Part shown: piece after piece, positions 13,466 through 15,759 of the stretch | Layout: each line of letters starts with the position of its first letter | Position numbering within the stretch: position 1 is the first letter of the stretch | Source of the DNA: Natrinema sp. SYSU A 869 | GTDB taxonomy: Archaea > Halobacteriota > Halobacteria > Halobacteriales > Natrialbaceae | DNA: 64,000 bases | Assembly: GCF_019879105.1 (NCBI RefSeq) | Contig: NZ_CP082249.1 | Location: 372,001 to 436,000, forward strand | Reading direction: 5' to 3' | Notes under the pieces: generated by a model | Databases searched by the model: none | What the model was told of the DNA's origin: nothing | What the model saw: only the letters and a program-made list of their open reading frames with translations | Program-made: the position numbers and the translations under genes

Positions 13466-13600
13466 TATTCAGCACGGCTCGCTGGACATCTCCCGTGCCT
13501 AATAGAAACACTAGTGCTCATTTCGCATATGTACTTAACATCACTTTCGAAAGAGAATTTGGTGAAATTATCGTCCGAGAACTCGTCTGAAGTCGGACAG
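13466..13600 (+). repeat. Right arm of dispersed element, copy 1
   Basis: Begins with TATTCAGCACG (13466) and ends in a 79-nt block (13522-13600) that matches 15682-15759 at roughly three quarters of positions. The block contains the inverted repeat GTCCGA (13573-13578) with TCGGAC (13593-13598). A shorter relative lies at 16864-16974. Confidence 0.55.
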
Positions 13601-13745
13601 TAATTTCGTTCAATACAGGACAGGGAGTGTACGCGTACTCACCGCGATCGAACGGGCTGACGGCCGTGAGCCGAGGGAGAGGAGTACTTTCCGTCGAAGC
13701 TAAGCGGTATCAAAGATCCCGTGAGGGTGTCGGCACGAAGTTGTT

Positions 13746-14128
13746 CGAAACGGCTTCGCCGTTTCGTGATGCCACAAATCTGCGATTTGTGAGCACGCCG
13801 ACTGCTCGAAGACCTTTGTCCCCCGCTGTCGTCGGACGGCGTTGACGCCCGACTGGAAGCGATTCCGAAGGAATCGCCCAGTCCGAGTGAGCTTCGCTCT
13901 CTCGAGATTTCGCCGAGGGCGCGATTCCGTCGTGCTCGTGGTTCGAAAAGCGCTTCGCGCCTTTCGTCATCAAGCGAAGCCTACGGCTTCGCGGATCCCG
14001 CGAATTCTGGCGGGACGTACGCCCTGCTGACATCGCGGGAGCGAAGCTCCCGCTTAGCTTCGATTCGCTCAGTCACGGAAGACGCTCTGCGTCTTCCGAA
14101 CGACAGCGCAAACGTTCGGTTCGCACTG
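13746..14128. repeat. Array of about eleven short-loop hairpins
   Basis: At least nine well-formed hairpins with loops of 2-7 nt stand one after another: 13746-13766, 13773-13791, 13831-13853 (imperfect), 13851-13883 (stem of 14 bp with a two-base bulge), 13889-13899, 13944-13966, 13974-13992, 13996-14015, 14035-14053, 14076-14098 and a weaker one at 14104-14128. Most stems are 8-10 bp with loops ttc, gaa, tac, tgc or tct; stem sequences all differ, so it is not a CRISPR or tandem repeat. No protein frame fits. The array lies directly downstream of the minus-strand transporter gene and could be in its 3' untranslated region, or be an independent element. The rest of 13347-14143 shows no gene. 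Confidence 0.8.
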
Positions 14129-14143
14129 AGCAACGTGTCTCAG

Positions 14144-15571
14144 TCAGTCCGTACTCTCGCTCGGTTGCGGTCGGTTTTCAGAGACGGAACGGCGGGCCAC
14201 TAAGACGAGCGCCATCACTGTCAGCAGCGCCGTGACCAACAACAGTCCCGTCCCCGCTGGGATCCCGACTAGGGCCGCGACGTCGGCGTAGAACGTAAAG
14301 AGGAGAAACGCCGGGAAGAGGGTCCCGATCGCGTATCGCCACGGGACCACCAGTGGGCGTGAGAGCTGTCCCGCACCTTCGAGATACTCCTCGATCGCGG
14401 CCGGACCGAGGACCCAGGCTGTGTACACCATGAACCCGGTCAGGCCAAGCACCAAGAGTAGATCGACGAGGTGGTCCGCGAACAGCGTAAACACCGCGGG
14501 GCTGAACGCGTTCACGCCGCCGGTGAGTGCGATCAGCGCGAATAGCCCCCGGGTCGCCGTCGACCGCTCGAGATCGAACTCGTCAACCAGAAACGAGACC
14601 GGAATCTCGAGCATGCTGATCAGACTCGTCAGAGCTGCGAGAAGAACGACGAGAAAGAAGACCGCGCCGAGAAGTCGCCCGCCGGGCAGGCTTGCGAACG
14701 CGCCGGCGATCCCGATGAACAGGGCGCCGGGGCCGCCCTCAGCCGGGCCCGGCGTGAATGAGAACAGCAACGGGAACACCACGAGTCCGGCCAGGATGCC
14801 GATACCGAGATTGAACACAGCGATAGCCGAGGCGTCGAGGGGCAGCGAGCGGTCGTCGTCGATGTAGGAGGCATAGGTGATCATCGTCCCGCTGCCGATC
14901 GAGAGGGTGAACAGCGCCTGGCCGGCGGCCGCTCCCAGTACCGATAGGAAGTTCTCCGCGAGGTAGGCACCGTCGAATTCGAGGTAGAACTCGTATCCCT
15001 GCGCGGCGCCGGGTTGTTGGGCCGCCCAGATCGCGAGTCCGATGAGCAACACGACGACACCGGGTATCATCACCTTCGTCGTCGCCTCAATGCCGCGTCT
15101 GATCCCCGCGGCGACGATCAGAGACGTGGCCACGAGGACGGCGAGTTGGTAGCCGAATGCTTCGGCACCGTAGCTGATCGCCGCGAAGTGGGTTTCGGGA
15201 TCCGCGAAATAGGCGCCCGTTGCGCTCTCGAGAAAGTACCGAAGGATCCATCCGCCGACGACGCTGTAGAACGACATCAGCATGATCGAGGTCACGACAC
15301 AGAGCACGCCCAACGCCGTCCAGAAACGCGATCCGGCGAGCGATTTGAACGCCCCCACTGGGTTCCGATTCGACCGTCGACCGATCACGAATGCGGCCAG
15401 CAATCCCGGCACACCGACGACGAGGACGATGAGCAGATACAACAGCAGAAAGGCGCTTCCGCCGTTCTCCGCGGTCATCCAGGGAAATCGCCAGATGTTC
15501 CCCAGTCCGATTGCGCTTCCGACCGCGGCCAAGATAAATCCGGCGCGACTCGACCAACTCTCACGTACCAT
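14144..15571 (-). CDS. Sodium-dependent (NSS/SNF family) transporter
   Basis: A 475-residue membrane protein with about twelve helices. The first carries GSAIGLGNIWRFPW, the sodium- and substrate-binding signature of neurotransmitter:sodium symporters, followed by an NGG motif. Another conserved helix reads ALFTLSIGSGTMITYASY. Prokaryotic members import amino acids such as tryptophan, leucine or tyrosine with Na+, which fits a salt-dependent cell; the substrate cannot be told from sequence. It is a single gene, and its 3' side runs straight into the hairpin array. Confidence 0.92.
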   Translation of the reverse strand: MVRESWSSRAGFILAAVGSAIGLGNIWRFPWMTAENGGSAFLLLYLLIVLVVGVPGLLAAFVIGRRSNRNPVGAFKSLAGSRFWTALGVLCVVTSIMLMSFYSVVGGWILRYFLESATGAYFADPETHFAAISYGAEAFGYQLAVLVATSLIVAAGIRRGIEATTKVMIPGVVVLLIGLAIWAAQQPGAAQGYEFYLEFDGAYLAENFLSVLGAAAGQALFTLSIGSGTMITYASYIDDDRSLPLDASAIAVFNLGIGILAGLVVFPLLFSFTPGPAEGGPGALFIGIAGAFASLPGGRLLGAVFFLVVLLAALTSLISMLEIPVSFLVDEFDLERSTATRGLFALIALTGGVNAFSPAVFTLFADHLVDLLLVLGLTGFMVYTAWVLGPAAIEEYLEGAGQLSRPLVVPWRYAIGTLFPAFLLFTFYADVAALVGIPAGTGLLLVTALLTVMALVLVARRSVSENRPQPSESTD

Positions 15572-15681: not shown

Positions 15682-15759
15682 TTCGCACACGTACGTAACG
15701 CCACTTCCGAAACGGGCTTAGTGAAATCATCGTCAGAGAATTCGTCCAGAGTCGGACAG
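15682..15759 (+). repeat. 79-nt dispersed repeat block, copy 2
   Basis: Aligns with 13522-13600: shared words include TTCGCA, GTAC, TAAC, CACTT, CGAAA, GTGAAAT and GTCGGACAG. Its inverted repeat is imperfect here (GTCAGA with TCGGAC). It is directly followed by left-arm copy 2. Confidence 0.55.

Follow-up and report, generated by a model that had tools for sequence, protein, structure and literature searches.

Behind the stop codon of an NSS (SNF family) transporter gene of Natrinema sp. SYSU A 869, short hairpins follow each other in close succession, and the question they raise is what such a run of palindromes is, whether it belongs to the transporter and how it arose. The window, the whole stretch of 64,000 nucleotides analysed here, corresponds to positions 372,001 to 436,000 of contig NZ_CP082249.1, and an earlier note made from its letters had described about eleven consecutive hairpins at 13746-14128, for which it proposed a structured 3' untranslated RNA of the transporter, a binding array for a protein or an element that grows by adding hairpins. 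The run was confirmed at that place, and the count was a fair one, with six perfect, three one-mismatch and three decayed hairpins (Table 1; the last three lie near the positions given there, according to our own reading of the sequence). The six perfect stems of 8-10 bp, all with 3-nt loops, are contained in 371 bp, where about ten hairpins are found when the imperfect ones are included; dinucleotide shuffles of the array gave a mean of 0.0185 such stems and a maximum of 1 in 2000 shuffles. The remaining 63.4 kb of the window hold four perfect triloop stems of at least 8 bp, and no stretch except the array has more than one triloop stem of at least 7 bp per 400 bp. In 400 kb sampled evenly from the chromosome 44 triloop stems of at least 8 bp were found, 4 of them with a neighbour within 70 nt, and the RNA fold of 13700-14180 reached -227.6 kcal/mol (z = -6.8). 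A CRISPR array or tandem repeat, already dismissed in the earlier note, is not what is seen, as identical direct repeats at regular spacing are missing. The statement that the stem sequences all differ holds within the array, but many of the stems recur in other arrays. The element extends past the interval first described, to about 13602-14128, and its outer stem with two inner hairpins has a like arrangement at two other loci (L039, L040) and an inverted interior at a third (L045).

Table 1. Positions of the transporter gene, the expanded element and its recognisable parts within the window
Feature	Position	Strand	Basis
NSS (SNF family) transporter gene, stop codon 14144-14146	14144..15571	-	PF00209, E 5e-53
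Whole expanded element, limits approximate	13602..14128	- (same sense as NSS gene)	array-free counterpart with similar flanks in G011 (L010); nhmmer match 13938-13641, minus strand
Gene-proximal terminus motif AGCGCAAACGTTCGG (+ strand)	14105..14119	-	read from sequence, motif and nhmmer matches
P0 5' arm CGAACGTTTGC	14108-14118	-	part of gene-proximal terminus
Hairpin CGGAAGACGC-TCT-GCGTCTTCCG	14076..14098	-	perfect triloop stem
Hairpin GCGGGAGC-GAA-GCTCCCGC	14035..14053	-	perfect triloop stem; recurs elsewhere
Decayed hairpin GGCGGGAC..GCCCTGC	14009..14027	-	own reading; intact relative in L119
Hairpin GCGAAGCC-TAC-GGCTTCGC (perfect)	13974..13992	-	loop inverted (GTA) at orthologous place in L016
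Hairpin CGAAAAGCGC-TTC-GCGCCTTTCG, one mismatch	13944..13966	-	stem search
Remnant of core hairpin P1 (decayed)	13918..13937	-	intact GCGCGAC-TCT-GTCGCGC in L013
P0 3' arm, first half, CTCGGCGAAAT on minus strand	13907..13917	-	sequence reading, nhmmer
Hairpin CGAGTGAGC-TTC-GCTCTCTCG, one mismatch, GAGAGAGC module	13884..13904	-	stem search; module recurs
Hairpin GCGATTCC-GAA-GGAATCGC	13859..13877	-	perfect stem; recurs
Decayed GTCGGGCGGC-type hairpin	13831..13853	-	comparison with other copies
Outer stem GTCGGC/GCCGAC around two perfect hairpins, 13746-13766 (CGAAACGGC) and 13773-13791 (CACAAATC)	13729..13802	-	fold, stem search
Hairpin CGGTATC-AAA-GATCCCG, one mismatch, GCGGGATC module	13705..13721	-	stem search
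P0 3' arm, second half, and conserved CTTCGACGGAAAGTACTCCTCTCCC	13674..13698	-	R1 and HMM matches

Judged by its sequence, what the window contains is an enlarged and decaying version of an unnamed multicopy chromosomal element of the class Halobacteria. When its own genome (5.67 Mb) was searched with the array, 63 partial matches including itself were obtained, and at matching places the stems recur with other loops and in another order (GCGATTCC, GTCGGGCGGC, CAAAAGAGCGC, GCGGGAGC, GAGAGAGC, GCGAAACC and others). Matches were present in all 29 genomes of the genus Natrinema searched, and the GCGATTCC hairpin was also found in Natronococcus, Halostagnicola, Halovivax, Halorhabdus, Halogranum and haloarchaeal MAGs, several of which carry multi-hairpin arrays in the same order. 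The usual copy measures about 200-280 bp and reads, in gene sense, as the 5' arm of an 11-bp stem P0 (CGAANTTTTGC), a conserved internal loop, a single triloop hairpin P1, the P0 3' arm (GCAAAANTTCG), ATNAAAAGCACTCCTCC and a conserved distal part; the consensus of the whole element is CCGAANTTTTGCNCTGC - P1 - CTCGGCAAAANTTCGATNAAAAGCACTCCTCCYTCC - variable - TCRGTCGTCGGCCCGCTCGC..GCTCGCGGT - variable - GCCTGCCCTYCCCCGGGTC - hairpin - CTCCCGGCCA. The TTTT tract in P0 is almost invariant, and the fixed terminus AGMGYRAAAKTTCGG had matches in 20 of the 29 Natrinema genomes, against 0 of 29 for a reversed control pattern. Most of the 94 distinct full-length copies recovered have the single P1 hairpin; in long arrays the extra modules, for example GAGAGAGC with GCGGGAGC, or CAAAAGAG with GCGATTCC, GTCGG and GCGG, are placed chiefly within the P0 3' arm (GCAAAA / modules / CTTCG) and in the stretch from the start to P1. 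The copy in the window, which the P0-P1 model R1 and the sequence HMM match weakly, is on this comparison an expanded, partly decayed and extreme example of the family. The covariance models of Rfam 15 gave no meaningful match to the window array, to long copies or to minimal copies, and no earlier account was found in the open literature searched, an earlier description in subscription papers being possible. The identity of the element is well supported; its function is what we infer below. One position of P0 frequently reads C.C or G.A in the alignments A1 and A3, and a base in the downstream ATNAAAAGC varies along with it, the linked states being (A,T,C), (C,C,G), (G,A,T), (C,G,C) and (G,C,G).

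Model R1, which covers P0-P1 in 71 positions, matched 116 of 242 Halobacteria genomes belonging to 44 of 73 genera; since the search scored the best candidates of each genome only, copy counts are lower bounds, and two evenly spaced 400-kb samples lead to an estimate of some 10-50 copies in each genome. Of 197 genomes drawn from the phylum, the 19 that matched R1 all belong to the order of the window, and none of those drawn from outside it matched; well-sampled genera without any R1 match exist as well. A phage or plasmid element was ruled out, as phage records gave no match and only four plasmid records carry the element, with intergenic copies in the three examined. In one genome (G044) five loci (L147, L182, L184, L186, L187) are near-identical recent copies with the ends TGCGAACCGAAC .. 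CCTRTACTGA, which by eye lie within a larger repeat with imperfect inverted ends around CAGTAGTTGGTACCACGGCTTCTTTATTCGG that the program search did not report. Many AGCGATTCC-NNN-GGAATCGCT hairpins, mostly near contig ends, were seen in the uncultured Clostridia MAG E04__bin113 (CALWKN01 contigs; L090, L093, L107, L109, L120, L121, L123), and these are probably an unrelated repeat.

With the family in hand, the relation to the transporter can be reconsidered. The window element lies 24 nt beyond the NSS stop codon, and in a congener (G011, L010) no array is found beside that stop. An RNA specific to the NSS 3' untranslated region was ruled out, as most copies sit behind other genes, and of the structured 3' RNA first proposed there remains an element of gene 3' ends, most members of the family lying 0-6 nt from a stop codon; the scarcity of G-U pairs and the lack of strand polarity in the loops, described below, cast doubt on a plain 3' UTR RNA. 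The compensatory changes asked about at orthologous NSS loci were found in part: pairing is kept with changed bases in CACAAATC/GATTTGTG against CACAAATT/AATTTGTG (L011) but stems are broken in L015 and L019, while across the family pairing is kept. Growth by addition of hairpins was largely borne out: at TFS and NSS, orthologous copies differ at a given site in whether they have a module of one to several hairpins, and at the NSS locus the GCGAAGCC hairpin has the loop TAC in the window and GTA in G009, at a fixed place. A tie to an accessory zone with a broken recombinase found no support, since typical members sit behind conserved chromosomal genes, and a binding array for a protein is possible. 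Similar sequences of about 65 bp (..TTAGTGAAATCATCGTCCGAGAATTCGTCCAGAGTCGGACAG) flank the NSS gene in direct orientation (window 13536-13600 and 15695-15759) and are also found beside the array-free NSS gene of G011.

The position at stop codons was observed with three sets of copies: in 45 of 66 copies found by the terminus motif, 0-4 nt separate this end of the element from the stop of an open frame that has 100 codons or more, 100 of 128 copies found with the whole-element HMM start 0-6 nt after a stop codon, and among covariance-model copies from five families other than that of the window (f4, f5, f7, f12, f17) 25 of 30 lie within -2 to +5 nt. Random positions fall at a stop codon in 1.7% of cases, a null that allows for the false frames which open-frame tests can yield in GC-rich DNA; the binomial test treats orthologous copies as independent, which they are not. 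All three kinds of stop codon are used. The upstream genes, named by eye from the ends of the translated proteins and not by profile, are PAN, L10e, EngB, mevalonate decarboxylase, polC (DP2), acyl-CoA dehydrogenase, geranylgeranyl reductase, thermosome, TFS, gyrB, aIF1A and Asd, many of the genes concerned having housekeeping roles, and behind several of them (TFS, PAN, L10e, polC, EngB, aIF1A, gyrB and thermosome) the element is found in two or more genera or families. Behind TFS it is present in 26 of 29 Natrinema genomes, in some of them expanded or altered, with a short 5' remnant only in G003 and none in G005 and G023. Pairs of copies pointing towards one another, where two genes converge, occur in several genomes (L048; covariance-model pairs), although an element exclusive to convergent pairs was ruled out, downstream frames being both convergent and co-directional, as in gyrB-element-gyrA. 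About one fifth of the Natrinema copies are not at a stop codon. Exceptions within the family comprise the G044 subfamily, copies that adjoin sequence lacking any long frame upstream, and copies that precede a gene whose start reads MSDFDLD.

Such a placement bears on two alternatives. A selfish non-autonomous repeat of the PATE or REP kind, mobilised by a transposase that tolerates gene ends only, would account for the multiple copies, for the near-identical G044 copies at different places and for the mosaic make-up of long copies, and PATEs are common in haloarchaea (PMC3119063); nevertheless we regard it as very unlikely, given that the element is in place at TFS in 26 of 29 species, that the same genes carry it across genera, that it is nearly absent from plasmid and phage records and that, because every kind of stop codon is used, no DNA target sequence can explain its position. 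Control of translation, in which a structure right behind the stop would delay or halt the ribosome as it terminates and so adjust how strongly the preceding gene is expressed, fits the spacing of 0-6 nt, and REPs of E. coli that lie no more than 15 nt from a stop codon are reported (PMC12306157) to stall ribosomes and lower translation. It requires, however, an RNA structure on the sense strand alone, to which the scarcity of G-U pairs and the polarity-free loops are opposed, and some copies do not follow a coding gene; we regard this explanation as quite unlikely.

A few loci are recorded here for their surroundings. Seven copies (L139, L148, L150, L156, L158, L178, L183) adjoin a conserved sequence, CAGTGAAACTTGCCATGCCCGACGGAAGACGG.., which had no Rfam hit in the three loci tested. 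Directly after aspS, in L112, L098 and L113, directly repeated copies of the 3' end of that gene, CTGTTCCCGCGAGAYCG, enclose a unit of two hairpins, the first of GTCGGCGC type or GCCGGCGC and the second GCGATTCC. In L046, according to our own reading, the array adjoins a tRNA gene together with incomplete repeats of the 3' end of that gene (TGCGCTGGCTGGGATTTGAAC), which suggests an old integration site.

The pairing was compared between copies. Among 39 minimal Natrinema copies aligned over P0-P1, 11 pairs had changed on both sides, with 52 double-change cells against 12.3 in shuffled alignments and 0-16 in slid structures; among 56 distinct copies across families, whose alignment was fitted to the model, 15 pairs and 167 double-change cells were found, against 46.4 after shuffling and 7-20 after sliding. 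Examples of covarying arms are CGAAATTTTGC/GCAAAATTTCG, CAACCTTTTAC/GTAAAAGGTTG, CAACCGTTTAC/GTAAACGGTTG and CGAAGTTTTCC/GGAAAACTTCG. Both P0 and P1 thus covary strongly and beyond the controls for relatedness, as a structured RNA should, but the tolerance of G-U pairs on the transcribed strand that would be expected of one was not observed: G-U occupies 6 of about 1019 cells (0.6%) against 15 of 312 (4.8%) in local tRNA stems (p 4e-6), and it is not commoner than A-C (16 versus 19). The loops, read in gene sense, are GNA in 95 cases and TNC in 88 and show no strand preference, 251 of 259 are closed by a C-G pair, and 18 of 55 stem types carry both a loop and its reverse complement. Because G-U is rare and the loops are without polarity, pairing looks to be kept at the level of DNA, or for transcripts of both strands, or by mutation that perfects palindromes; the G-U scarcity does not favour a role for RNA of one strand.

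A structure at the DNA level, namely a cruciform or single-strand hairpins serving for instance as a topoisomerase or chromatin-protein site at which supercoiling behind transcription units is taken up, a role that has been suggested for bacterial BIMEs, would agree with pairing restricted to Watson-Crick, with loops lacking polarity and with the copies that face each other at convergent gene ends, and C(GNA)G triloops are very stable in DNA. The conserved letters of the internal loop and the fixed spacing from the stop codon of the sense gene would be unexpected for a supercoil sink, and we consider this role unlikely. If palindromes merely grew and were perfected by template switching (mutational palindrome correction), no function would be required, and loop inversions, perfect Watson-Crick stems, mosaic modules and the decay at the NSS locus are all compatible with it; that P0, the internal loop and the distal part are conserved between families, and that the spacing from the stop is kept, would be left unexplained, which makes absence of function hardly credible for the family as a whole, unlikely for the core and possible for the extra modules.

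For the element of which the array is an expanded copy, we hypothesize that template switching at hairpins, during DNA replication or repair, causes modules and loops to be gained, lost, perfected and inverted, and that the element serves at the end of transcription units, where its most likely role would be to make transcription pause or stop, symmetrically for both strands. To this reading, drawn from comparison of sequences, we assign a probability of about 0.55. A bidirectional transcript-end structure is placed first, ahead of a DNA-level role, translation control and a selfish repeat, because of its position, of the hairpin with a T tract and of the precedent of Haloferax volcanii, in which a hairpin ended 59% of transcripts (PMC7237163). 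Against it, the T tract consists of four T only and stands ahead of the hairpin, unlike that of a bacterial terminator, a strong terminator between gyrB and gyrA would be odd, and the fifth or so of Natrinema copies found away from stop codons also speaks against it. As several genera have no match, the transcript-end function would be dispensable or replaced there. With its distance of 24 nt from the NSS stop and its broken stems, the copy in the window may have ceased to function.

More tentatively, and at somewhat below even odds, the family may represent a new class-wide archaeal gene-end signal, a palindromic module at the stop codons of a set of genes, many of them core, in which pairing would be kept for both DNA strands and whole-hairpin addition, deletion and inversion would keep the sequence fluid while fold and position stay fixed. 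Many Halobacteria would then share an unannotated gene-end element at genes such as gyrB, polC, ribosomal L10e, PAN and TFS, with a bearing on how archaea end transcripts or translation that culturable species allow to be tested. The family further provides a natural experiment in how hairpins evolve, with many aligned loci in each genus at which hairpins have been gained, lost or perfected or their loops inverted. It could help to tell selection on RNA structure apart from mutation that creates palindromes, a confusion known to mislead covariation analyses.

By analogy, the element would appear to work most like REP/BIME elements and hairpin terminators. With the clustered-hairpin intrinsic terminators of bacteria (PMC8355165) and the hairpin/T-tract termination of H. 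volcanii (PMC7237163) it shares at least one hairpin just behind the stop codon, but it is a conserved homologous family with covarying arms and not any hairpin, and termination by it is putative. Haloarchaeal PATEs (PMC3119063) are likewise non-coding, a few hundred bp long, palindromic and multicopy, but they have near-terminal palindromes of IS605 type and strain-specific insertions, whereas the present element appears mainly vertical, as at TFS, and linked to stop codons of all three kinds, with a recent subfamily in G044. A 2025 survey of REPs names no haloarchaeon in its text (PMC12306157). Like BIMEs and REPs, the element forms interspersed multicopy palindromes at gene 3' ends and mosaics of hairpin units in both orientations, a likeness in the arrangement of palindromes, where membership would further call for a GTAG/CGTC tag or a linked RAYT tyrosine transposase; unlike them, it has an 11-bp outer stem with a conserved internal loop, lies 0-6 nt from the stop and occupies the same genes across genera. 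Chloroplast and mitochondrial genomes contain hairpins with invertible loops or mobile double hairpins, and these have perfect stems, loops that flip between relatives and units that are added or lost, as seen here, while the present element differs from them by its link to stop codons and its conserved archaeal core.
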